A stretch of 64,000 bases of DNA from Haloarchaeobius iranensis (lineage in GTDB: Archaea; Halobacteriota; Halobacteria; Halobacteriales; Natrialbaceae). The DNA lies in the NCBI RefSeq assembly GCF_900103505.1, contig NZ_FNIA01000001.1:186001-250000 (forward strand), in the 5' to 3' direction. Shown one piece after another: positions 12,278 through 60,736 of this stretch. Position numbers and translations under genes: made by a program. The first letter of the stretch is position 1. The number at the start of each line of letters is the position of its first letter. A model generated the notes under the pieces. It saw only the letters and a program-made list of their open reading frames with translations, searched no databases and was not told where the DNA came from.

Positions 12278-12672
12278 TCACGCGTCGGTGCCGGACCGAC
12301 GGATGAGGCCGCCGAACTCGAACCGGAGCACCACCCCGTCAGCCTCGTTCCGGCAGACCCCGTCGGCGGCGACGCGGTGTCCAGCGTCCGTCGACTCGAC
12401 GGTGTGGAACGTCACCGTGCAGGTGACGGTGTCGCCGGTGTGGACGGGCCGCGGGAACTCGAACGCCATGCGGTCCGCGAGCACGTCGTACTCGCCGCCG
12501 ACGGCCGTCGGGAGCGTGGCGGTCAGCAGCCCGTGGACGAGCAGCCGGCCGTCCGCGTCGGTTCCGGTGGTGGCTGCCGGTGTCACGCGACACGTCGGCG
12601 AACTGCCGCACGTCGTCGGCGGTGAACTCCCGGGGAGACTGTCTCGACCTGACTCTCGTCGGGAACTGGCAT
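12278..12672 (-). pseudogene. Frameshifted MaoC-like (hot-dog fold) acyl dehydratase
   Basis: Three pieces in different frames line up as one MaoC-like dehydratase. The frame from the ATG at 12672 gives MPVPDESQVETVSPG. Next comes EFTADDVRQFADVSRDTGSHH in a second frame (about 12565-12630). Finally DADGRLLVHGLLTATLP runs to GGLIRRSGTDA in a third frame (to 12278). Two shifts, near 12630 and near 12567, are needed. The SRDTGSHH segment is where the family carries its catalytic Asp/His. Real decay and sequencing error are both possible; two errors within about 70 bp favour a locus worth resequencing. Confidence 0.65.
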
Positions 12673-47994: not shown

Positions 47995-48000
47995 TTTATG
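47995..48000 (+). promoter_or_regulatory. TATA-like box of the clamp-loader gene
   Basis: TTTATG in GGGGGCTTTATGCACG is centred about 27 bp before the ATG at 48025. It overlaps an in-frame upstream ATG at 47998, which would therefore not be transcribed; this supports the 48025 start. Confidence 0.6.
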
Positions 48001-48024
48001 CACGGACGACTCCTCGATTGCTAC

Positions 48025-49014
48025 ATGAGCGAGGCCGAGGCGACCGGCGACGACGCAGGGGGTCGCAAGCAGGTCTGGATCGAGAAGTACCGGCCCGACG
48101 GGCTCGACGAGGTGGTAGGCCACGAGGACATAATTAACCGTATAAAAAGCTATGTCAATAAGCAAGACTTACCGCATCTTATGTTTGCAGGACCGGCCGG
48201 TACCGGCAAGACGGCAACCGCCGTGTCCATCGCCAAGGAGGTCTACGGCGACGACTGGCAGGAGAACTTCCTCGAACTGAACGCTTCGGACCAGCGCGGC
48301 ATCGACGTGGTCCGTCAACAAATCAAGAATTTCGCGAGTACCGATTGGAGTGGGAGGAAAGGAAACAATCCCAGTATCATCTTCCTCGACGAGGCCGACG
48401 CGCTGACCCCGGACGCGCAGTCCGCGCTGCGCCGGACGATGGAGCAGTTCTCGAACAACACGCGGTTCATCCTCTCGTGTAACTACTCCAGCCAGATCAT
48501 CGACCCCATCCAGTCCCGCTGTGCGGTGTTCCGGTTCTCGCCGCTGGCCGACGAGGCGGTCACCGAGCAGGTGCGGTTCATCGCGGCCGAGGAGGGCATC
48601 GAGTACACCGAGGACGGCGTCGACGCGCTCGTCTACGCGGCCGACGGCGACATGCGCAAGGCCATCAACGCGCTGCAGGCGGCGTCGGTGATGGGCGACG
48701 CCGTGGACGAGGAGACGGTGTACGCCATCACGTCGACGGCCCGTCCGGAGGAGGTCGAGGCGATGGTGACCGACGCGCTGAACGGCGACTTCGTGGCGGC
48801 GCGGGCGAAGCTCGACGAGCTCATCACCGAGCGCGGGCTGGCGGGCGGCGACATCATCGACCAGATCCACCGGTCCGCGTGGGAGTTCGAACTGGAGGAG
48901 CAGGCGGCGGTTCGGCTGCTCGACCGCCTCGGCGAGGCCGACTACCGCATCACGACCGGCGCGAACGAGCGGATACAGCTGGAGGCGCTGCTCGCCTCGC
49001 TCGCCCTGGAGTAG
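48025..49014 (+). CDS. rfcS: Replication factor C small subunit (clamp loader)
   Basis: RfcS loads the PCNA sliding clamp at primer ends. The 329-residue AAA+ protein has Walker A GPAGTGKT (56-63), Walker [11 protein letters not shown] (118-127) and the clamp-loader SRC motif [10 protein letters not shown]. It has the C-terminal collar helices. Length and features fit RFC small subunits. Two stretches use A/T-ending codons quite unlike the rest of the gene: codons 36-56 (48130-48192, 14 of 21 end in A/T) and codons 97-117 (48313-48375, 11 of 21). They lie directly before Walker A and Walker B. The gene contains no intein. Confidence 0.95.
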
Positions 49015-49142
49015 CTGGTTTTCGAACCCGAATATCGATAATTCGAGGCCTGAGGGCGCAAATATCAACCGATGGGACATTTTCGCGGCCGAGACATTTA
49101 TGTCGACTAACACCATGGTCGGTACACGAACTACGGGGTAGC

Positions 49143-49730
49143 ATGTCAGAAGGTACCAACGTCCTCGTCGTCGAGGACAACACGGAGTTGGCGAGCCTCT
49201 ACTCGTCATGGCTGGGTGCTGAGTGGGCCGTCACGTCCGTCAGCGACGGCGACGAGGCTGTCGAGGCCGTGACGTCGGAGACGGAGATCATCGTCCTCGA
49301 CCGTCGGTTGCCGGGTCGCTCCGGCGACGAGGTACTCGAACGGGTTCGCGCCGACGGCTACGACTGCCAGGTGGTCATCGTCACGGCCGTCGAACCCGAC
49401 TTCGACATCATCGAGATGGGCTTCGACGACTACCTCGTCAAGCCGGTCGACCGCGAGACGCTGAACCGCTGTCTCGAACGGCTCCAGCGCCGGAGCGAGT
49501 ACGACGCCGAACTCCGGGAGTACTACGCACAGGTCTCGAAGAAGGCGGTCCTGGAGGCCCGAAAGCCCGAGCCCGAGCTCCGCAACTCCGAGGAGTACCG
49601 CCAACTCGAGGAGCGGGTGGCGGCCCAGGCCGACCGCGCCGACAGTCTCCTCGACGAGCTCTTCGAGAGCGGCAGCGACGTCCAGCTGTTCCACGGCCTG
49701 CTCGGTGGGCACGCCGGCACCGCGAACTGA
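49143..49730 (+). CDS. Response regulator with receiver and HalX domains
   Basis: The 195-residue protein has a receiver domain (about 5-120). The acidic pocket is Glu11/Asp12, the phospho-acceptor Asp53 in IIVLDRRLPG, Thr81 and Lys100 in DDYLVKPVD. A helical HalX domain follows (about 125-185, ELREYYAQVSKKAVLEARKP), the usual haloarchaeal output/partner domain. It converges with the histidine kinase gene 26 bp away, so the two may form a signalling pair. A short upstream frame (49100-49141, ending TAG one base before the ATG) is noted under findings. Confidence 0.9.
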   Translation: MSEGTNVLVVEDNTELASLYSSWLGAEWAVTSVSDGDEAVEAVTSETEIIVLDRRLPGRSGDEVLERVRADGYDCQVVIVTAVEPDFDIIEMGFDDYLVKPVDRETLNRCLERLQRRSEYDAELREYYAQVSKKAVLEARKPEPELRNSEEYRQLEERVAAQADRADSLLDELFESGSDVQLFHGLLGGHAGTAN

Positions 49731-49756
49731 CGCTCGCTCTCCCGTCCCGTTTCGTT

Positions 49757-51676
49757 CTACTCGACGACGAACTCGAAGCGGAGCCCGTCGTCGTCGACGA
49801 CGTCGACCGACCAGCCGTGCGCTTCGGCTATCTCCCGGACGATGGTCAGCCCGAAGCCGGTGCCGACCTCGCTCGTCGTGAAGCCGGATTCGAGGATTCG
49901 ACTGGGGTCGTCGCCGTCGTAGCCGATGCCGTCGTCGTCGACGGAGAAGCCGTGGCGGTCCGCGAGCGGGCCGACGGTGACCCGGAGCGGCTCGCCGTCC
50001 GGGCGACGACCGGACGGCCCCTCCGTGTCTGCGGGGTCGTCCTCCTCGCCGGTGCCGTGGGTCACCGCGTTCCGGAACAGGTTCTCGAGGAGTTCGACCA
50101 GTCGGTCGCGGTCGGCGTCGACGGTCGCGCTGTCGACGACGGACAGCGTCGCGTCGCCGGTCCGGACGCTGGACCAGGCCTGTGTCGCGACGGGGCCGAG
50201 GTCGACGGGCTCGGTGTCCCCGACGACGTTCCCCTGTCTGGCGAGCGCGAGCAGGTCGTCGATGAGCGTGTTCATCCGACCGTGTGCGCGGCGTATCTCG
50301 TCGAAGTGCTCGGGGTCGCCCGTCTCCTCGGCGAGGCCGACGTAGCCCTGGGCGATGGAGAGCGGGTTGCGGAGGTCGTGGCTGACGATGCTCGCGAACG
50401 CGTCGAGGCGCTCGTTCTGGCGCTCCAGCTCGCGCTGGCGCTGTTTCTCCTCGGTGATGTCGGTGTAGATGGCGAAGCCCTGGAGGCTGCGCTCGCCGCG
50501 CTCGAACGGGACGACGTGCAGCAGGAAGTCGCGGACCTCGTCCTCGGTCTTGCGTCGGGAGACGACCTGGAGGCTCTCGCCGGCGAGGAGCTTCTGGTTC
50601 AGCGACCTGGCCTCGTCCTCGAACCCCTCGGGGACGATGTACTCGTCGATGTCCTCGTCGATCACCTCCGCGGTCGACCAGCCGAACGTCGACTCGAACG
50701 CCGGGTTGACCTCCTGCACCCGGAGTTCGCCGTCGACGAGCGCGAACCGGACGACCGGGTCGGGGACGTTCTCGAACAGCGCGGAGAGGCGGTCCCGCTG
50801 GCGGCGGAGGTGGCCCTCGGCACGGAGCCGTTCGACCGTCTCGGCGACGTGGGTCACGAGCAGTTCGACCAGCTCCCTGTCCCGGTCGTCGAACGCGTCC
50901 GGCTCCGGCGAGCCGGCCTGCAGGATGCCGAAGTCGCCGACGGGGACCGAGAGGACGGAGCGGTACCCCGGGTCTGACTTGTCGACGGCCTCGTTCTCGC
51001 GCTCGCGCACGTCGTCGACGACGATGGACGCCCCCGACTGGTACGTCTCGCCAGCGATACCCTCGTCGACCGCGATCTCGCCCGCCCCCGCGTAGCCCGT
51101 CTTTTCCATGCCGCCGGACACCGCGACGGGCACGAAGTAGCCGTCCTCGACGACGTCGATGCCGACGAGGTCGAGGTCGAGGATCTCCTCGGCGGCGCGG
51201 ACGGCCGACTCGTACACCGCGGTCTCGCTCTCGCAGCCGACGAGCTCCGTCGCGACGCGGTGGAGACGTGTCACTTTGGCCGTGCGTTCTCTGAGCGCCG
51301 TCGGGTAGTCGTCGCCGCTGGCGACGTGCCAGGCGACTTCGTCCGCGAGCCGGGTCGCCGCACCGTCGGTGCCGTCGTCGCGGACGAAGCCGTCGAAGGC
51401 CGCGAGCTCCCCGATGGCCGTCGGGTCGCCGTCGGCGAACACGACCGCCGGGGCGTCGACCGCGACGGCTGCTGCGCGGAGGTCGTCGGCCGTCGTCGGG
51501 TCCGTCGCGACCACGAGACAGGTGGGGTCGTGTTCGAGTTCCTCGGCGGCGGTACGGGCGTCGACCGTCCACTCGCCGCCGATGGCGGTCGCGACCGCCA
51601 GCGCGTGCTCCTCGTCGGTGGCGAGCACGGCGACCCGAACGCCGGCCATCTCGCGCCCCGTCTCGGAGCTTTTCAC
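49757..51676 (-). CDS. GAF-PAS histidine kinase with degenerate receiver-like N-terminus
   Basis: The 639-residue kinase has a receiver-like N-terminal part (about 11-118), a GAF domain (about 135-285) and a PAS domain (about 295-410). The HisKA box is FASIVSHDLRNPLS with His433, and the C-terminal HATPase has NLFRNAVTHG, DDGIGYDGDD and GTGFGLTIV motifs. No membrane segment is seen, so it should be cytoplasmic. The start is a GTG at 51676, supported by a TATA-like AGTTAAAC about 27 bp upstream; an ATG nine codons later is possible. It likely signals to the HalX regulator facing it. Confidence 0.9.
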   Translation of the reverse strand: MKSSETGREMAGVRVAVLATDEEHALAVATAIGGEWTVDARTAAEELEHDPTCLVVATDPTTADDLRAAAVAVDAPAVVFADGDPTAIGELAAFDGFVRDDGTDGAATRLADEVAWHVASGDDYPTALRERTAKVTRLHRVATELVGCESETAVYESAVRAAEEILDLDLVGIDVVEDGYFVPVAVSGGMEKTGYAGAGEIAVDEGIAGETYQSGASIVVDDVRERENEAVDKSDPGYRSVLSVPVGDFGILQAGSPEPDAFDDRDRELVELLVTHVAETVERLRAEGHLRRQRDRLSALFENVPDPVVRFALVDGELRVQEVNPAFESTFGWSTAEVIDEDIDEYIVPEGFEDEARSLNQKLLAGESLQVVSRRKTEDEVRDFLLHVVPFERGERSLQGFAIYTDITEEKQRQRELERQNERLDAFASIVSHDLRNPLSIAQGYVGLAEETGDPEHFDEIRRAHGRMNTLIDDLLALARQGNVVGDTEPVDLGPVATQAWSSVRTGDATLSVVDSATVDADRDRLVELLENLFRNAVTHGTGEEDDPADTEGPSGRRPDGEPLRVTVGPLADRHGFSVDDDGIGYDGDDPSRILESGFTTSEVGTGFGLTIVREIAEAHGWSVDVVDDDGLRFEFVVE

Positions 51677-51728
51677 TGGTGAACCGATACTGCCGCGTGG
51701 GGTTTAACTCTGCGGCCGCCGGGGGCGG

Positions 51729-52244
51729 TCAGTTCAACGACCAGATTGCGTAGTTCAGGAGCGCCGCGAAGCCGACCCACGCGAGATACGGCACGAGCAG
51801 CGCGGCGGCGGGCCGGTCGACGCGGTCGAACGCGGCGACGGTGCCGGCGACGAGCACCCAGAGGACGGCGATGATGCCGAGCGCGAGACCGGGTCGCTGG
51901 AGCGTGAAGAACACGGGCGTCCACGCCACGTTGAACGCCATCTGGAGGGCGAACGCGCCGAGTGCGACCCGGACCGTGGCGTGCTCCGTCCCCTCGTGCC
52001 AGACCCGGTAGAGGGCGACGCCCAGCAGCGAGAAGAGAACGGTCCAGGCGACGCCGAACGCCCAGCCGGGCGGGTAGAACCACGGCTTCTCGAGCGCCTG
52101 GAACCACGCGCTGTCGGGGCCGCCCAGGGCCGCCGGCGTCGCGCCGACGACGTTCACCAGCACGACGAAGCCGAGGGCGCGGAGCAGTTCGTCGCCGTCG
52201 GGGAACCGCGAGCCGCCGGTCGCGCCGTCGTTCGCCGAGGACAT
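51729..52244 (-). CDS. tspO: TspO/MBR-family membrane protein
   Basis: TspO proteins are five-helix membrane proteins that bind tetrapyrroles and affect stress responses. The 171-residue protein has helices near 20-40, 58-80, 92-110, 115-135 and 145-168. It has the family's Trp/Pro-rich segments WFQALEKPWFYPPGWAFGVAW and FNVAWTPVFF. I chose the ATG at 52244 (MSSANDGATGGSRFPDGDEL), since the longer frame upstream is not family-like. It is divergent from alaS. The ligand here is untested. Confidence 0.9.
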   Translation of the reverse strand: MSSANDGATGGSRFPDGDELLRALGFVVLVNVVGATPAALGGPDSAWFQALEKPWFYPPGWAFGVAWTVLFSLLGVALYRVWHEGTEHATVRVALGAFALQMAFNVAWTPVFFTLQRPGLALGIIAVLWVLVAGTVAAFDRVDRPAAALLVPYLAWVGFAALLNYAIWSLN

Positions 52245-52414
52245 GCCGTTGACTGGGACGGCCGTCCACTTAACCGGAGGCGGTACCCCCGTCGGACCGC
52301 CGGTGGAGCCCTCGAACTCGGGGGGCCGCGGCCACCGCCCCCAGCGTCGCGAATTTTGCAGGAAGGGCGGTTGCGGAACTGTTTTACCGACCGAAGGGCC
52401 ACTGTGGGACAACG

Positions 52415-55192
52415 ATGAGCGAACTTGAGGAGGAGTACCGTCTCGACTATTTCGAGACGGAGGGGTTCGTACGCCGGGAGTGCACCGGCTGCGGTGCCCA
52501 CTTCTGGACACGCGACCACGACCGGGAGCTGTGCGGTGAGCCACCCTGCGAGGATTACAGCTTCATCGACAACCCCGGCTTCGACGAGGAGTACACGCTG
52601 GAGGAGATGCGCGAGGCGTTCCTCTCCTTCTTCGAGGAACACGACCACGAACGGATCGAGCCGTACCCCGTGGCGGCGAACCGCTGGCGGGACGACGTGC
52701 TGCTGACCCAGGCTTCTATCTACGACTTCCAGCCGCTCGTCACCTCCGGGCAGACGCCGCCGCCGGCGAACCCGCTGACCATCAGCCAGCCCTGCATCCG
52801 GATGCAGGACATCGACAACGTGGGCAAGACGGGCCGGCACACGATGGCGTTCGAGATGATGGCCCACCACGCGTTCAACACGCAGGAGGAGGTCGACGAG
52901 GACGCCTACGCCTACCACGGCGAGGTGTACTGGAAGGACGAGACGGTGCAGTACTGCGACGAACTCTTCGAGTCGCTGGGGGCCAACCTCGACGAGATAA
53001 CCTACATCGAGGACCCGTGGGTCGGCGGCGGGAACGCCGGGCCGGCCATCGAGGTCATCTACCGCGGTGCCGAGCTCGCCACGCTCGTCTTCATGTGCAT
53101 GGAGCAGGACCCCGACGGCGAGTACGAGATGAAGGACGGCAACCGGTACTCCTTCATGGACACGTACATCGTCGACACCGGCTACGGGCTGGAGCGCTGG
53201 ACCTGGATGTCCCAGGGGACGCCGACGGTGTACGAGGCGGTCTACCCCGACATGATCGCGTTCCTCAAGGAGAACGCCGGCATCGACCTCGCCGAGGACG
53301 AGGCCGAACTCGTCAACCGCGCCGCGAAGCTCGCCGGCCGGATGGACATCGACGAGGCCGAGGACATGGAGACGGCCCGGGGCGACATCGCCGCGAAGCT
53401 CGACGTCGAGACCGACCGGCTGGAGTCGCTGATGGAGCCGCTGGAGGACATCTACGCCATCGCCGACCACTGCCGGACGCTCGCGTACATGTTCGGCGAC
53501 GGCATCGTCCCGTCGAACGTCTCGACGGGCTACCTCGCCCGGATGGTGCTCCGGCGCACGAAGCGCCTCTGTGACAACGTCGGCGTCGACGCGCCGCTCG
53601 ACGAGCTGGTCGACATGCAGGCCGACCGCCTGGGCTACGAGAACCGCGACACGGTCCGCGACATCGTCCGCACCGAGGTCGAGAAGTACCGCGAGACGCT
53701 CGACCGCGGCAGCCGTCGCGTCGAACAGCTCGCCGAGGAGTACGCCCGCAAGTCGGAGCCCATCCCGACGAGCGAGCTCATCGAGCTGTACGACAGCCAC
53801 GGCATCCAGCCGGACATGGTCGAGGCCATCGCCGAGGAGGCCGGGGCGCGCGTCGACGTCCCCGACGACTTCTACTCGCTCGTCGCCGAGCGCCACGACA
53901 GCGCCGAGGCGTTCGACGAGGCGGACGAGAGCGAGGCCGAGCGCCTCGACGACCTGCCCGAGACCGAGCGGCTCTACTACGAGGACCAGCAGCGCACCGA
54001 GTTCGAGGCGGTCGTCCTCGACGTGTTCGAACGCGATGACGGCTACGATGTCGTGCTCGACCAGACGATGTTCTACCCGGAGGGCGGTGGCCAGCCCGCC
54101 GACACCGGGAGCCTCTCGACGGACGACGTCACCGTCGAGGTGACCGACGTGCAGCGCCGCGACGGCGTCGTCCTCCACCGGACCGACGAGAGCCCGGGCA
54201 AGGGCGAGTTCGTCCGCGGCCAGATCGACACGTACCGCCGCAAGCAGCTGATGCGCAACCACACGGCGACCCACGTCGTCATCCACGCCGCCCGGCAGGT
54301 GCTCGGCGAGCACATCCGGCAGGCCGGTGCCCAGAAGGGCGTCGACGCCTCCCGCATCGACGTCCACCACTACGAGCGCATCACCCGCGAGGAGGCGAAG
54401 GAGATCGAGCGCTACGCCAACGAGCTGGTGATGGAGAACACGCCAGTCAAGCAGGAGTGGCCCCACCGGAACGAGGCCGAGGAGAAGCACGGCTTCGACC
54501 TCTACCAGGGTGGCATCCCGCCGGGCACGAACATCCGGCTCATCCACGTCGCCGAGGACGTCCAGGCCTGCGGTGGCACCCACGTCGCCCGCACCGGCGA
54601 CATCGGGGCCATCAAGCTCCACACCACCGAGCGCGTCCAGGACGGCGTCGAACGCATCAGCTTCGCAGCCGGTGACGCCGCCATCCAGGCGACCCAGGAG
54701 ACCGAGGACGCGCTATACGACGCCGCGGACGTCCTCGACGTGACCCCGGAGGAGGTGCCCGAGACGGCGGCGCGCTTCTTCGAGGAGTGGAAGGCGCGGG
54801 GCAAGACCATCGAGGACCTCAAGGAGCAGCTCGCCGAGGTCCGTGCCTCCGGCGCGGACGGCGCGGAGGAGGTCGACGTCGGCGGCACACCCGCTGTCGT
54901 CCAGCGCGTCGACGCCGACATGGACGAGCTCCGCGCGACCGCCAACGCGCTCGTCGACGAGGGCAAGATCGCCGTGCTGGGCTCCGGGCTCGACGGCGCG
55001 CAGTTCGTCGTCGCCGTCCCCGGCGAGAGCGAGGTCAACGCCGGCGCGGTCGTGAGCGAGCTCGCGTCGAAGGTCGGCGGCGGCGGCGGCGGCCCGCCGG
55101 ACTTCGCACAGGGCGGCGGCCCCGACACCGACGCGCTCGACGACGCGCTCGACGACGCGCCCGACGTGCTCCGGGCCGTCCTCGACCACTGA
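52415..55192 (+). CDS. alaS: Alanyl-tRNA synthetase (archaeal type)
   Basis: This class II synthetase charges tRNA-Ala and edits mischarged Ser/Gly. The 925-residue protein has the archaeal N-terminal extension with a Cys-rich CTGCGAHFW region. The catalytic core holds motif 2 and [10 protein letters not shown]. The editing domain has the HxxxH site HTATH (616-620) and Cys719-xxx-His723. The C-terminal C-Ala domain ends with the Gly-rich linker [15 protein letters not shown] and a short helix. TTTTACC about 30 bp upstream is a likely TATA element. The gene is monocistronic. Confidence 0.96.
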
Positions 55193-55204
55193 GGCCGACC
55201 GAAC

Positions 55205-55210
55205 GTTTTT
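55205..55210 (+). promoter_or_regulatory. TATA-like box before the first DUF4013 gene
   Basis: GTTTTT (55205-55210) in GAACGTTTTTCCTG is centred 28 bp before the ATG of a 14-codon mini-ORF at 55236, not before the GTG of the main gene at 55277. This placement suggests the mini-ORF is the first translated frame. Confidence 0.5.
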
Positions 55211-55235
55211 CCTGCCGACACGTCTGGTTCGAAGT

Positions 55236-55280
55236 ATGTGCCGACAGCGGTGCTGCCGGCCGCACGAGGTGGGGCCGTGA
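55236..55280 (+). CDS. Mini-ORF (14 residues, Cys/Arg-rich) coupled to the first DUF4013 gene
   Basis: The frame reads MCRQRCCRPHEVGP and ends with TGA at 55278-55280. Its stop overlaps the GTG start of the main gene (GTGA). It starts at the position expected for a leaderless transcript from the TATA-like box at 55205. A similar arrangement precedes the second DUF4013 gene. I interpret it as a possible upstream leader peptide; it may be chance. Confidence 0.4.
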   Translation: MCRQRCCRPHEVGP

Positions 55281-56131
55281 GCCGCGACGACGAGCCAGAG
55301 CCGACGTGGGACGACACCGCGGCCAGCCCCCGCGATGCCGAGGGGCGGCCGTGGGACGACGAGGCTCGCTCGCCGCCGGGCCGCGGGCAGCCGGCCGCCC
55401 ACGGCGGCGGTGGACCGGGGGACGCCGGCCCGGACCGATGGGTCGACCGGCTCGGCGACCCCCGGTACGAGCGACAGCCCGCGGACCCACGGTCCGACGA
55501 GGCGATGGACCCGGGTATCTTCGACGCCGGCGTGGTGACGTTCAGCCTCAGGTACCCGTTCGGGGAGGGTGGGTCGGCGGCCCTGCTCACCGGCGTCCTC
55601 GGCATCCTCTCCTTCCTCGTCGTGCCCGGCGTGCTGGCGGTCGGCTACCTCACCCGGCTCGCCGGCGCGGCCGCACGGGCCGAGGAGCCGCCCGGCTACG
55701 ACGACATCTGGGGGATCGCGAAGTGCGGCGTCGTCGTCACCGTGCTCTGGTGGGGTGCCGTCGGCGGGCTGGGGACGCTGGTGTATCTGAGCGCGGGCGA
55801 GAGCACCCTGCTCGCCAGCGTGCTCGCACTCGGCGGGTCGTACCTCCTGCCCGGACTGTTCACGACGTACGCGGCGACCGAGGACCTCCGCGAGGCCGCC
55901 GTCCGCACGCCGGAGTTCGCGTTCACCCGGCGGTACGCCCTCCACTTCTTCGCCGACGCCGTGCTCCTGGTCGGACTGCTGGTCGTGGGCTTTCTCGTGT
56001 TGCTGCTCGTCACCTTCGCCGCCTTCCTCCTGCCGCTCGCGGCGCTGGTGCCGGCTGCGTACTGGGGCTACCTCTACGGCGAGGCCCTCGAGGACGGACG
56101 GGTCGAACCGCTGCCGCCCACGGACGGGTAG
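55277..56131 (+). CDS. DUF4013-type membrane protein, paralog 1
   Basis: The 284-residue protein starts at a GTG (MSRDDEPEPTWDDTAASPRD) and has a disordered, charged N-terminus (about 1-80). The body contains FSLRYPFGEGGSAALLTGVLG and helices at about 95-125, 140-165, 170-190 and 225-260. The pattern DAGVVTFSLRYPF followed by several helices with RLAGAAARAEEPPGYDDI is that of DUF4013 proteins. The function is unknown. The downstream gene encodes a paralog with the same layout, so the pair probably arose by tandem duplication. Confidence 0.7.
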   Translation: MSRDDEPEPTWDDTAASPRDAEGRPWDDEARSPPGRGQPAAHGGGGPGDAGPDRWVDRLGDPRYERQPADPRSDEAMDPGIFDAGVVTFSLRYPFGEGGSAALLTGVLGILSFLVVPGVLAVGYLTRLAGAAARAEEPPGYDDIWGIAKCGVVVTVLWWGAVGGLGTLVYLSAGESTLLASVLALGGSYLLPGLFTTYAATEDLREAAVRTPEFAFTRRYALHFFADAVLLVGLLVVGFLVLLLVTFAAFLLPLAALVPAAYWGYLYGEALEDGRVEPLPPTDG

Positions 56132-56154
56132 TGCGTGTCCTCGGCTGCCGGAAG

Positions 56155-56161
56155 GTTTTTT
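56155..56161 (+). promoter_or_regulatory. TATA-like T-tract before the second DUF4013 gene
   Basis: GAAGGTTTTTTCCG contains an uninterrupted T run at 56156-56161, centred about 30 bp before the mini-ORF ATG at 56189 and 66 bp before the main ATG at 56224. The spacing fits the mini-ORF better. Confidence 0.5.
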
Positions 56162-56188
56162 CCGACCACCCACCATCGTGTCAAATAG

Positions 56189-56227
56189 ATGGCGTTCCAC
56201 AGCGTTCGGCAGGTGACGGCTGTATGA
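56189..56227 (+). CDS. Mini-ORF (12 residues) coupled to the second DUF4013 gene
   Basis: The frame reads MAFHSVRQVTAV and its TGA (56225-56227) overlaps the ATG of the main gene at 56224 (ATGA). The layout mirrors that upstream of paralog 1, although the peptide sequences differ. Translation would begin on a near-leaderless mRNA and pass to the main frame by reinitiation. Chance cannot be excluded. Confidence 0.4.
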   Translation: MAFHSVRQVTAV

Positions 56228-57408
56228 GCCGGGACGAGGACGACCCGGACGACGGCCGCACTACCGACCATCCGCCCGGCGAGGAGGGTGGCGACCCGGC
56301 CGACGGCGACCCGGCCGACGACGAGTCCGCGTACCCGAGCTACTCGTGGGACGGCGACGAGGACGAGTGGCGTGCAGACACCGAGCCGACCACACCGCCG
56401 GAGCGCTCGACCGACGACCGTCCCGCCGCCGGAGGTGGCCCCCCGGCCGACGACAGCCACGGGCCGCGCCGGGCCGAACGGTCACCGGACGACGGGCGGC
56501 GACCGACCGACCCACCCGACGACCGACGGCGTGGCCGCCAGCGTCGTCGCCGGCCCGACGCGCAGCGCGCTCCCGGCGGCGATGCGCGGCGCGCCGGCGA
56601 CCGGACGGCCGGCGAGCCAGCGTCGACAGCCGACCGTACCGGCTGGAACTTCGACAGTCCGCACCCGGACCACGGTGCACGCCGCGACGAACACGAGCGT
56701 CGCAGGGAGACCACCCGCGCCCCGCCGAACCGACCCGACGGCGACGACGGCGTGAAACACATCGACTGGCGACAGAAGGGCGCGTTCGACTTCGCGTTCT
56801 CCTACCCTACCCAGCGTGGCTGGGGGCCGCTCCTGAAGGCCGGGGCGGTCGTGCTGGTCAGCCCGCTGCTCGTGTTCCTCCCGCTCGTGTTCCTGTTCGG
56901 CTACGTGTTCCGCCTCACCCGCTACGCCGCACAGGGCCGCACGCAGCCCGAGTTCGCCGACTACGGCGACATGCTCACCGACGGGGTCGGCTACGTCGTT
57001 GCGTTCACCCTCGCATGTGCCGTCTGGGTCGGTGCGGTCGTCGCCGGCGCGATGCTCCACGATGCGGTCGCCGTAATCTTCGGCCTCGCCGGGTTCTACC
57101 TGTTCCCCGCCGCACTGACCGTCTACCCCGTCACGGGAAGCATCACGAAGACGTTCTCGTCCAGCCTCACGTTCGATTTCGCGTTCAGCACGCACTACCT
57201 CAAGTACAGCCTGCTGTACATCCTGCTGCTCGTCGTCCTCCGCATCGTCGCCTCGTTCAGCGTGCTCCTGTTCCTCGTCGGCGTCGCCTGGGGCTCGGCG
57301 TTCACCTACCTCGCCAACGGCGCCTACTGGGGGTTCGTCTACTACAGGGGCGCGGAGGAGGGCGTGCTGCCGACTGCGGAGGAGGTCGACCAGCGGAACG
57401 GCTACTGA
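56224..57408 (+). CDS. DUF4013-type membrane protein, paralog 2
   Basis: The 394-residue protein has a long disordered N-terminus (about 1-180, rich in Asp, Arg, Pro and Gly, with RRRGRQRRRRPDAQRAPGGD). The membrane part begins FDFAFSYPTQRGWGPLLKAG, then FGYVFRLTRYAAQGRTQPEFADYGDMLTDG and three to four helices, and ends YYRGAEEGVLPTAEEVD. The core matches DUF4013 proteins. The N-terminal tail is much longer than that of the neighbour. The ATG at 56224 overlaps the stop of a mini-ORF. The function is unknown. Confidence 0.72.
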   Translation: MSRDEDDPDDGRTTDHPPGEEGGDPADGDPADDESAYPSYSWDGDEDEWRADTEPTTPPERSTDDRPAAGGGPPADDSHGPRRAERSPDDGRRPTDPPDDRRRGRQRRRRPDAQRAPGGDARRAGDRTAGEPASTADRTGWNFDSPHPDHGARRDEHERRRETTRAPPNRPDGDDGVKHIDWRQKGAFDFAFSYPTQRGWGPLLKAGAVVLVSPLLVFLPLVFLFGYVFRLTRYAAQGRTQPEFADYGDMLTDGVGYVVAFTLACAVWVGAVVAGAMLHDAVAVIFGLAGFYLFPAALTVYPVTGSITKTFSSSLTFDFAFSTHYLKYSLLYILLLVVLRIVASFSVLLFLVGVAWGSAFTYLANGAYWGFVYYRGAEEGVLPTAEEVDQRNGY

Positions 57409-57632
57409 ACGGTCCGGCGCGCGTCTTCTCGACCCGGCACGTCACGGCCGAGCAGCCACAGCGGCGGCTCCGAACCGTGGTTCGCGCCACCAAAAGGATA
57501 TGATAGTGGCGTATCCCAGTCCCCACTCGGTCCCGGCCGAGCAGGGCATCGATCAGGAGGCAACGACTGATCCGATCTGGGGGGTCGTAACCCCGTATAC
57601 GATTCCGGGAGCCACCACTGTAAACGTATTGG

Positions 57633-58835
57633 CTAAACGAAGGCTTCGCGGTCGCCGGAGGGTCGGGTGCCGGACGACGGGAGGTCGAGCGTGTCGAGGG
57701 CGGCCTCGCGGACGGGCTCGACGTGCTCCTCGGGGGCGTAGACGCCGAGCCGCCACTGGACCGTGCTGGCTGCCTGGAGGCCCTGCACCAGCGGCGAGGC
57801 GTCCCGCAGCCGGCGGACCTCGCCGTTGACGACGACGCGGGTCGAGGACTCGGGCATGGCGGGGCGGCCGGGGACGTCGAGGAGGACGGCCCGCTCGGGA
57901 ACGCCGGCGGCCTCGGCGACGGCGCGCTCGGCTTCGCGTTCGTCCGCGTGGCCCGCGTCCACGATTCCGTCGGGCACGTCGTCGAGTTCGGCCCAGACCG
58001 CGCGCTTGTAGAGGTCGCGCTCGGCGAGGCGGGCGGCGTCCTCGGCGGTGGGCTCGTGGTCACGCAGCGCGGCAACCAGCTCGTCGTCGGTCATCCGTGC
58101 GAAGCGCTCGGCGTCCAGGTCGGTGCCGTCGAGCAGCCGTTCGCAGGCGCTCTCCAGCATCTCGCCGGCGATGCGGGGGACGTGATGACGGTAGACGGTG
58201 GCGTTCATCAGCGCCCGGGCGACGAGCATCGACTCGGCGGTCGCGAGGTTCCCCTCGGCGAGCGCGAGGTCGCCGTCGATGAAGGTGAGCGCACGGAGGA
58301 GGCGGGCCTGGTCGATGGTGCCGTAGGGCACCCCGGAGTGGTGGGCGTCGCGCACCAGGTAGTCCATCCGGTCCGCGTCGAGCTCGCCGGAGACGAGCTG
58401 GCCGAGCTTCCCCTGGCCGTCGATGAGGTCGGCGACGACCGTCGTCGAGATGCCGTGCGATTCGAGCACGTCGGCGAGTGCCGTCTCCTCGAGCAGGTCG
58501 TGCACCTCGTCGTGGTGTCGGCCGAGGCGGCGCTCGATGATGCCCTCGGTCTGGTGGCCGTACGGCCCGTGGCCCACGTCGTGGAGGACGGCGGCGGCCT
58601 GCACCGCCTCGGCGCGGCTGCCCTCGATGTCGAGGTGGCGACAGGCCCGGCGGGCGAGATGGTAGACGCCCAGCGAGTGCTCGAAGCGCGTGTGGTTCGC
58701 GGAGGGGTAGACGAGTCGCACCGTCGAGAGCTGCTTGATGTGGCGGAGCCGCTGCATCGCCGCCGTGTCGAGCAGGTCCGCGACGACGCCCGACACCTCG
58801 ATGTAGTCGTGGACGCTGTCCTTGATCGCGTGCAT
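57633..58835 (-). CDS. HD-domain phosphohydrolase (dNTPase-like)
   Basis: The 400-residue protein has the HD metal site: His53 in TRFEHSLGVYHL, His85-Asp86 in VLHDVGHGPYGH and the last Asp in ELDADRMDYLVRD (about 153-158). The layout (KDSVHDYIEVSG start, HIKQLSTVRLVYPSA) fits the SAMHD1/dGTPase-like group. Such enzymes remove triphosphate from deoxynucleotides or act on nucleotide signals. I chose the ATG at 58835 (MHAIKDSVHDYIEV), since the longer frame upstream is not similar. The substrate is unproven. Confidence 0.85.
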   Translation of the reverse strand: MHAIKDSVHDYIEVSGVVADLLDTAAMQRLRHIKQLSTVRLVYPSANHTRFEHSLGVYHLARRACRHLDIEGSRAEAVQAAAVLHDVGHGPYGHQTEGIIERRLGRHHDEVHDLLEETALADVLESHGISTTVVADLIDGQGKLGQLVSGELDADRMDYLVRDAHHSGVPYGTIDQARLLRALTFIDGDLALAEGNLATAESMLVARALMNATVYRHHVPRIAGEMLESACERLLDGTDLDAERFARMTDDELVAALRDHEPTAEDAARLAERDLYKRAVWAELDDVPDGIVDAGHADEREAERAVAEAAGVPERAVLLDVPGRPAMPESSTRVVVNGEVRRLRDASPLVQGLQAASTVQWRLGVYAPEEHVEPVREAALDTLDLPSSGTRPSGDREAFV

Positions 58836-58906
58836 TGTCGATACCTCGCAGTGGCGTGGCAAAAGAAGCCCGGAACGGTCGGGGACGACGGCAGTGAGGG
58901 GAGCGG

Positions 58907-59905
58907 TCAGCGAGCGGTGGTCGTCGCGGTGCCCTCGCCGGTCTCGTCGTCCTCCTCGTCGGTCGTCCGGTACGGCCGGTCCGTGGTGCGGTCCGGGCGG
59001 TCGTTGTCGTCCACGGTGGCGTAGTACGTGGTGCCGTCGTAGCGGAGGACGTACCACCGGTTCGAGTGTGACCGGTCGACCGGCTCGTGGGCGCTGATGC
59101 GCTCGACGAGAGCGGCGAACGCCTCGGAGAGCTCCTTCTCCTCACTGTAGCCCTCCTCGATGGCGGTGTCGACCATCCCGCGCTGCTCCTCGGAGAGGTC
59201 GTTCCGGGCGAGGGTGAACACGTGCTCGTCGACGACGCGCTCGACGTACGTCGCCACGTCCGGCGCGAGCGGTTCGAGTTCGTACCGGAACCGACCGTTC
59301 TCGACGGTTCGCGGCCCCTGGTACTCGACGAGGAAGGTGTGGCCATCGTACCTGACCGCGTCGTACTCCTGCTCGGGGACGAACACGGAGTCGGCGTCGT
59401 CGGGGTAGTCGTCCCGGACGAACGCCGACATCGCGCTGCCGTCTCGGGCCAGCGAGCCGGGGTCTGCGGAGTCGAACATCTCCCGGTCGATGGCTGGGAG
59501 GTCGCCGTGGTCGACGATGCGGGCATCGGAGTCGACCTCGACGGTCGTGTTGTCGCCGCGGCCGGTGTAGGTCACGTCGAACGTGTCCAGTGTTCGGCGT
59601 TCGACACCGACGCGGGTAGTGCGGACGGCGAAGACGCGGTCCTCGAAGCTCACGACCCGCCCGTCGTGGACGTACGGGCCGTTCCAATCGGTGCTCGTCC
59701 GGACGTACGACCCGTTCTCGTGTGCGCGACGGACGACGGTCTGCCCCTCGGGCGAGAGGTCGCGGGCGGGCCGTACCAGCTGCTCCCCGATGTCGGCGTC
59801 GGGGAGGGCGACCAGTCGGAGGTCGACGCGGGGAGGGCGGCTGCAGCCGGCGAGGGCGACGGTGAGGGCACCGCCGGCCGCCGCGAGGAACTGACGGCGT
59901 TGCAT
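58907..59905 (-). CDS. Predicted Tat-exported lipoprotein
   Basis: The 332-residue protein begins MQRRQFLAAAGGALTVALAGC, a twin-arginine signal (RRQFLA) ending in a lipobox (LAGC). It should therefore be exported folded and lipid-anchored, as is usual in haloarchaea. The mature part has two similar beta-rich segments (around YDAVRYDGHTFLVEY and WYVLRYDGTTYYATVDD) that suggest an internal repeat. The C-terminus is Thr/Asp-rich. No enzymatic motif is recognised. The ATG at 59905 is preferred over the GTG one codon upstream. Confidence 0.8.
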   Translation of the reverse strand: MQRRQFLAAAGGALTVALAGCSRPPRVDLRLVALPDADIGEQLVRPARDLSPEGQTVVRRAHENGSYVRTSTDWNGPYVHDGRVVSFEDRVFAVRTTRVGVERRTLDTFDVTYTGRGDNTTVEVDSDARIVDHGDLPAIDREMFDSADPGSLARDGSAMSAFVRDDYPDDADSVFVPEQEYDAVRYDGHTFLVEYQGPRTVENGRFRYELEPLAPDVATYVERVVDEHVFTLARNDLSEEQRGMVDTAIEEGYSEEKELSEAFAALVERISAHEPVDRSHSNRWYVLRYDGTTYYATVDDNDRPDRTTDRPYRTTDEEDDETGEGTATTTAR

Positions 59906-59965
59906 CACGTCGTATCGTCGTCACCATCCGTGAATACTTTCCGGTGGCGACTGCTCCCCACAGCC

Positions 59966-60736
59966 ATGCCGACCACGACGCGCGACGGGACGACGCTGCA
60001 GTACCGGACCGACGGCGACGGCGCGACGGTTGCGTTCGTGCCGGACATCGGCGTCGGCCCGTGGTTCTGGGGCTGGCAGCACGCCGGCCTCGCCGGCCCG
60101 TTCGAGACGCTGACCTGGGCGATGCGCGGCACCGACGGCTCGGACCCGCCGGCCGGACCGTGCTCGGTGGCGACGCTGGCGAACGACCTCGACGTCGTGC
60201 TTCGGGACCACGGCACCGACTCGGTCCACCTCGTCGGGAGCGGCCTCGGCGCGATGGTCGCGCTGCACTACGCCCGCAACTCGGGCCGCGTCCGGAAGCT
60301 CGCGCTGCTCGCCGGCGCGGCGACCGGCGACGCCTACGACCCGGAGCCGCTGTTCGCCGACCCCGCAGACGCCGGTGCCTGCAGGGAGACGCTCTCGCCG
60401 GCGCTCTCCGCCGATTTCCGGGCCGAACAGCCCGACGTGCTCGACGGTATCGCGGACTGGCGCGGCGACGAGGACGCGGACCGCGAGTCGTGGGAGAACC
60501 AGCGCGCGGCGCTCGACGGCTTCGACGCGGAGCCGCTGTACGAGGTCGACCACCCGACGCTGGTCGTCGTTCCCGGCGCGGACGAACTTCTCGACCCGGA
60601 AGCCGGGCGTCGACTCGCCGACGAACTCCCCCGTGGCGAGGTGGTCACGTACCCCGACGCGAGCCACTTCGTCGGTATCGAGCGGTCACGTCCGGTGAAC
60701 GACGCGCTCCTGGGATTCTTCGAGAGCGAGGACTGA
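59966..60736 (+). CDS. Alpha/beta-hydrolase-fold protein lacking the nucleophile serine
   Basis: The 256-residue protein starts MPTTTRDGTTLQYRTDGDGA and has a complete alpha/beta-hydrolase fold. The nucleophile elbow, normally GxSxG, reads Gly91-Ser-Gly93-Leu-Gly95 in HLVGSGLGAMVAL, so the catalytic serine position is glycine. The acidic residue (VPGADELLDP) and the histidine (YPDASHFVGIE) are retained. It may have lost hydrolase activity, or Ser92 may substitute. The gene is divergent from the lipoprotein gene. Confidence 0.8.
   Translation: MPTTTRDGTTLQYRTDGDGATVAFVPDIGVGPWFWGWQHAGLAGPFETLTWAMRGTDGSDPPAGPCSVATLANDLDVVLRDHGTDSVHLVGSGLGAMVALHYARNSGRVRKLALLAGAATGDAYDPEPLFADPADAGACRETLSPALSADFRAEQPDVLDGIADWRGDEDADRESWENQRAALDGFDAEPLYEVDHPTLVVVPGADELLDPEAGRRLADELPRGEVVTYPDASHFVGIERSRPVNDALLGFFESED

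Follow-up and report, generated by a model that had tools for sequence, protein, structure and literature searches.

Two tandem genes in a 64,000-nucleotide stretch of the Haloarchaeobius iranensis genome (the window) are each preceded by a promoter-placed mini-ORF of 12 or 14 codons whose stop codon shares bases with the start of the real gene. Judged by comparison across genomes, the frame and the position of such mini-ORFs are shown to be under selection while the encoded peptides are not kept, and this holds for the leaders of DUF4013-type genes, of pyruvate dehydrogenase and, with a longer overlap, of aspartate kinase. We consider it likely that these mini-ORFs are disposable fore-cistrons on which ribosomes would initiate in leaderless fashion before termination and reinitiation at the real gene, assisted by a Shine-Dalgarno-like (SD-like) motif.

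The two genes of the window lie after alaS (Table 1). Gene 2 matches DUF4013 (PF13197) with 42.6 bits at a Pfam cut-off of 26.9, and gene 1 remained below threshold in Pfam and NCBIfam, with no family model matched; the two share 30% identity, and their paralogy is based on BLAST only. The original prediction had described a 12-codon frame whose TGA overlaps the ATG of gene 2, and the sequence reads exactly so. It had also placed a T-tract promoter for this frame; the T6 box lies at -33 to -28, and the AT-rich box of leaderless starts in this genus was found at -29 to -26 in a sample of 1.50 Mb. Given this spacing, the 5' end of the transcript is predicted to fall within a few bases of the mini-ORF 2 ATG. 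That gene 1 might really begin at a leaderless GTG at 55238 was ruled out, because this codon reads GTC in G004. RNA folding of both leaders was unremarkable (z from -0.38 to -1.49), and Rfam and tRNA scans of 48500-58500 and 48000-60000 gave no matches. Separately, about 100 nt located 3' of gene 2 (57490-57600; ATATGATAGTGGCGTATCCCAGT...GTCGTAACCCCGTATAC) look near-identical in two relatives (L007 and L009), and the beginning of this stretch also occurs 3' of alaS in another genus (L029). It has no Rfam match and may represent a small RNA that has escaped recognition or encode a short protein under conservation.

Table 1. Features of the tandem DUF4013-type locus and of the stretch before the HalX regulator, in window coordinates.
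Feature	Position	Strand	Details
ACATTTATR element before HalX regulator	49094..49102	+	contains the supposed mini-ORF ATG; outside the device
T-tract (TATA-like) promoter box of mini-ORF 1	55206..55210	+	T5, -30 to -26 relative to ATG
Mini-ORF 1	55236..55280	+	14 codons MCRQRCCRPHEVGP plus TGA; GTGA overlap onto gene 1 GTG at 55277
Mini-ORF 1, conservation			retained in G002, G003 and G004 with altered peptides
SD-like GAGGTG within mini-ORF 1	55266..55271	+	gene 1 start 5 nt downstream
Gene 1	55277..56131	+	284 aa, membrane-type protein; paralogue of gene 2
T6 promoter box of mini-ORF 2	56156..56161	+	-33 to -28 relative to ATG; same in four genomes
Mini-ORF 2	56189..56227	+	12 codons MAFHSVRQVTAV, TGA at 56225-56227; ATGA overlap, gene 2 ATG at 56224
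Mini-ORF 2, conservation			retained in G002, G003 (main start now GTG, overlap intact) and G004
SD-like AGGTGA within mini-ORF 2	56211..56216	+	gene 2 start 7 nt downstream
Gene 2	56224..57408	+	394 aa; DUF4013 (PF13197) at residues 214-349, preceded by a long charged N-terminal stretch

Six genomes of the genus were available for comparison, four with the tandem pair and two with a single DUF4013 gene after alaS. All ten alaS-linked DUF4013-type leaders in these genomes combine a promoter box, an ATG at the predicted 5' end, a mini-ORF of 12-20 codons and an NTGA overlap with the main start, and their mini-peptides (12, 14, 19 or 20 codons) fall into three unrelated groups. In the genomes with the tandem pair, mini-ORF 2 reads MAFHSVRQVTAV, MAFHSVRQVTVV, MASHSVRQVTAA or MAGYSVRQVTVP, the last of these with a main start switched to GTG and the overlap retained as GTGA, while the versions of mini-ORF 1 are MCRQRCCRPHEVGP, MSRQRCCRPHEVWP, MCRQRRRLPGEVGP and MCRQRCDRQREVAP. 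The single-copy genomes carry the unrelated mini-ORFs MLLTDDTTMAVSDRRVVVGA (20 codons) and MLRTDDTTAMAPTRAGGDT (19 codons). Among 29 DUF4013 loci of other genera, for which the start was chosen mechanically and some frames extend far upstream, the full layout was seen in none, and one had an NTGA mini-ORF that lacked a promoter box.

The same architecture is found far more widely before the gene for pyruvate dehydrogenase E1-alpha (TIGR03181), where a seven-codon mini-ORF (MSRWVLP) is present in all four genomes sampled from the genus. We surveyed 117 genomes of the order, obtained a match in 102 and read 98 of the 102 best hits. All 90 of the best loci carry a mini-ORF with NTGA overlap, 87 of them by the plain rule (mini start ATG; main start ATG, GTG or TTG) and the other three recognised on reading, one with a GTG mini start and two with a CTG main start. 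The mini-ORFs span six (n = 7), seven (n = 66), eight (n = 14) or nine codons (n = 3) and start with ATG in 89 cases and with GTG in one. Main starts are more varied (68 GTG, 18 ATG, two TTG and two CTG), so that the overlaps include two CTGA and two TTGA. The G residues of the SD-like motif at -13 and -10 are present in all 90 leaders, while conservation is much weaker in the columns between box and ATG and at the second codon of the mini-ORF. Eight weaker matches were also read: three have the mini-ORF, four lack it, and in one it is probable (four or seven codons, with a closer box).

Aspartate kinase shows a variant of this arrangement. In a survey of 59 genomes with a match in 57, all 57 loci were read, and a promoter-placed mini-ORF of 12-59 codons precedes the gene at 50 of them; it is absent at the other seven (families f9, f11 and f15). 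The distance from the mini-ORF ATG to the main start takes 13 different lengths between 29 and 170 nt, all of which equal 2 modulo 3. When the ATG was located by the box alone with no condition on frame, which was possible at 42 loci (of the remaining eight, four were located via this box at a greater upstream distance and another four through their frame), it was in this frame in 42 of 42 cases over ten distinct lengths. The overlap is not of the NTGA type, as the stop codon lies 10-16 nt inside the gene in 46 of the 50 cases (10 nt in 26, 13 nt in 19 and 16 nt in one) and overlaps by 1 nt in the other four. In one genus (f5 g33), these mini-ORFs have expanded to 35-59 codons with the frame intact. 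The AT-rich genomes of ca. 1 Mb of family f2 (L295, L296, L298 and L299) have a 12-codon mini-ORF before aspartate kinase, the TAG of which overlaps the GTG of the gene by 1 nt (TAGTG).

How far such arrangements exceed chance was assessed on the 1.50 Mb drawn from four genomes of the genus, comprising 1315 genes found by a simple codon-usage caller with approximate starts. A count of coupled mini-ORFs, of the kind that had been suggested together with the original prediction, shows ATG above control triplets: of 101 promoter-placed, out-of-frame ATGs, 24 end in an NTGA on a gene start, compared to 81 of 1082 for seven control triplets, in rows that include orthologues and are hence not independent. 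Counted by gene clusters in which three or more genomes share an overlapping mini-ORF placed behind a promoter, ATG scores 8 of 230 and the controls score a mean of 1.2 (19 triplets, 22 in total, range 0-4 each), where the eight include one real 29-aa protein (MSEATKIVLATVG...) and one 25-codon match (MCHRRRPHASS...). The 29-codon match MSEATKIVLATVG... was rejected as a mini-ORF and represents a conserved small protein instead. A match at the thermosome gene was likewise set aside because its TATA-like box abuts the ATG of the mini-ORF. SD-like motifs lie upstream of 14 of the 24 mini-ORF-coupled starts (10 of 24 are without). Among leading genes, they precede 16 of the 402 that have a box at their start and 54 of the 589 others; for downstream genes that are close or overlapping and have no box, the figure is 88 of 240. 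On the sampled contig, 6 of 261 called genes (ca. 2%) are conserved cases, comprising the two DUF4013-type genes and those for pyruvate dehydrogenase, a sensor kinase, an 871-aa protein and aspartate kinase; this contig was picked for holding the finding, and any figure for how common such cases are genome-wide would be a guess.

Some further frames were noticed along the way. Outside the window, at L083:13468 (G000:C53:153468, minus strand), lies the frame of a conserved hydrophobic small protein of 29-32 aa (MSEATKIVLATVGIAGALSVALV...), which in four genomes shares a TGATG or NTGA with the start of a 261-aa gene. Another cluster of G000:C53 outside the window, with the main start VTLIAGAEDP, shows a 25-codon frame (MCHRRRPHASSANSRAVATTPSERR) with NTGA on the gene start in four genomes, which could represent a mini-ORF or reflect a neighbouring gene. 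Within the window, a promoter-placed frame of 29 codons (MPVPDESQVETVSPGVHRRRR...) at 12672 on the minus strand (G000:C53:198672) runs with GTGA onto a 103-codon ORF; no conservation of this frame was found in the four-genome sample.

A third mini-ORF had been proposed before the HalX regulator (49100-49141). Its letters are present in the window, but it does not survive comparison with relatives, since of three relatives G004 alone has an ATG at the start; G001 and G003 read ATA there, and G003 has also lost the stop. Start and stop are thus not jointly retained, and from its sequence the supposed mini-ORF looks like a TATA-like box.

The order of events that we propose for the conserved cases begins with transcription starting a few bases from the mini-ORF ATG, as expected from the promoter box, which would make the mRNA leaderless for the mini-ORF. 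A ribosome would initiate there and terminate after 6-20 codons (longer for aspartate kinase in some genera) at a stop codon that overlaps the real start, by NTGA in the DUF4013 and pyruvate dehydrogenase leaders. The SD-like sequence within the mini-ORF, 5-8 nt upstream of the real start, would then retain the terminating ribosome for reinitiation at the NTG. In such a process the mini-peptide would be immaterial, and the parts expected to be retained are an ATG at the 5' end, an uninterrupted frame, the SD and the stop-start overlap. This is the pattern to be expected if translation of the mini-ORF is needed to reach the gene, as ATG, open frame, overlapping stop and SD-like motif are all kept. 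The original prediction had already argued from two loci with unrelated peptides that translation itself rather than the peptide matters, and the comparisons fit this idea: DUF4013-type orthologues have unrelated peptides in the same layout, and the architecture is conserved beyond the peptide in 90 of 90 pyruvate dehydrogenase leaders and, with the longer overlap, in 50 of 57 aspartate kinase leaders. That position and frame are kept and the peptide is not suggests that the mini-ORF serves as a loading ramp for ribosomes. A delivered ribosome would likewise be consistent with the drift of main starts to GTG, TTG and CTG. Counting against the proposal are the longer overlaps at aspartate kinase, the aspartate kinase and weaker pyruvate dehydrogenase loci that lack a mini-ORF, the DUF4013 genes of other genera and the 10 NTGA cases with no SD-like motif. 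We infer from sequence the transcription start, the translation of the mini-ORF, the reinitiation and the feeding rather than limiting of the downstream gene.

The last of these steps is where a regulatory uORF would differ, i.e., a translated mini-ORF that restrains or tunes the main gene through inefficient reinitiation or codon-specific stalling. A translated out-of-frame ORF at the 5' end can in general limit the next gene, and aspartate kinase is an amino-acid biosynthesis gene whose mini-ORFs are slightly rich in threonine (47 residues observed compared to 33.4 expected from shuffling). However, this excess is small and shared by Asp, Ser and Val, and threonine attenuation before aspartate kinase was therefore rejected. 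Furthermore, the peptides are not conserved in any of the three gene families, which makes specific stalling unlikely; plain down-tuning is compatible with the sequences, and we regard regulation of this kind as an unlikely account overall. It is still less probable that the mini-ORFs encode functional micropeptides, a reading to which we attach next to no weight: SVRQVT does not vary among the four closest genomes, but its RQVT part is dictated by the SD (CGGCAGGTGACG), and the peptides of G001, G005 and genomes across the order are unrelated.

Two other explanations do without translation of the mini-ORF altogether. The leaders could be ordinary ones with an SD, in which the 5' ATG and the frame are accidental; SD-like sequences do lie at a suitable distance in mini-ORFs 1 and 2, and 35-41 nt with an SD would be unremarkable for other prokaryotes. 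We find this very hard to reconcile with the ATG that begins 89 of 90 pyruvate dehydrogenase mini-ORFs despite poorly conserved surroundings, with lengths that change only in threes in two gene families, and with the excess of ATG over control triplets in both tests. In addition, SD motifs have been reported to be inactive in a 5'-UTR of Haloferax volcanii, where de novo initiation on the leadered sod mRNA is not driven by them (PMC3986360). Alternatively, the conserved block at the gene 2 mini-ORF ATG (CGTGTCAAATAGATGG) could be a DNA element that acts as an additional promoter or as an operator; the supposed mini-ORF at HalX is an example of just this. CGTGTCAAATAGATGGCG is the same in four genomes, with an AT-rich run at -6, but the block is missing in G001 and G005, which nevertheless retain the mini-ORF and its NTGA; the leaders of gene 1 and of pyruvate dehydrogenase have no such block, and the T6 box is already there, all of which leaves this explanation highly improbable. 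We favor the fore-cistron with leaderless initiation and SD-assisted reinitiation.

On a broader proposal our opinion is evenly balanced: haloarchaea may have a conserved third route of initiation, in which a leaderless, disposable fore-cistron hands its ribosome, by SD-assisted termination-reinitiation, to genes whose own SD would be of no use on a plain 5'-UTR. If true, this would give a role to, and explain part of, the SD motifs before haloarchaeal leading genes, where the SD is reportedly inactive in 5'-UTRs, and it may serve a few percent of genes, some of them order-wide. For expression work, promoters copied together with such a leader carry a hidden out-of-frame ATG, and annotation has to reckon with coupled starts that are frequently GTG, TTG or even CTG.

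Among known systems, upstream ORFs in haloarchaeal transcripts have been described for H. volcanii (Babski et al. 2016, PMC4983044), but the accessible part of that study deals with 5'-UTRs of 150-250 nt only and reports no overlap, whereas the leaders described here measure 17-56 nt apart from five of 98-170 nt at aspartate kinase and one of 74 nt. A short uORF that delivers a ribosome is named as a proposed role in a review (PMC12548453). The termination-reinitiation pairs of H. volcanii (Huber et al. 2019, PMC6728339; 2023, PMC10666635) share the NTGA overlap, the SD-like upstream motif and the haloarchaeal host with our cases, and the combination of a short overlap with an intragenic SD-like motif is also seen here, with the motif in 14 of the 24 NTGA cases. 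However, their upstream partner is a real gene rather than a frame of 6-20 codons with no conserved product, and the accessible parts of both papers make no mention of such mini-ORFs. In line with our proposal, the downstream gene of these overlapping pairs was found to depend strictly on upstream translation with a varying contribution of the SD (PMC6728339). A distance of 22 nt from stop to start abolished reinitiation in one H. volcanii pair, 15 nt of the upstream gene were sufficient in E. coli, and long overlaps are described as rare, which speaks against the aspartate kinase mini-ORFs as cases of this kind (all PMC10666635).

A leaderless fore-cistron with an SD has been built as a synthetic bicistronic design in Corynebacterium, where both its translation and its SD are reportedly required (Liu et al. 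2023, PMC10367133); that device is man-made, whereas the one described here is natural and conserved and is best read as a natural form of it. In the open-licence literature we found no description of such mini-ORFs in archaea, which does not prove that there is none. The closest described system comes from mycobacteria (Shell et al. 2015, PMC4633059) and consists of leaderless "coupled" small ORFs, whose TGA overlaps the next RTG start (RTGA) in an over-represented arrangement and whose architecture but not peptide is kept in the example given there. The same kind of overlap is present as NTGA in ten of ten DUF4013-type and 90 of 90 pyruvate dehydrogenase leaders but not in the form found at aspartate kinase. 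The mycobacterial system is bacterial and its transcripts and ribosome footprints were measured, whereas ours is archaeal, predicted to be leaderless from the spacing of the promoter box, distributed order-wide, situated before central metabolic genes and equipped with an SD-like motif in the mini-ORF. On the best reading, the mini-ORFs described here are the archaeal counterpart of these coupled small ORFs; if so, a mycobacterial trick that synthetic biologists have rebuilt would also be archaeal and old enough to have been retained across an order.
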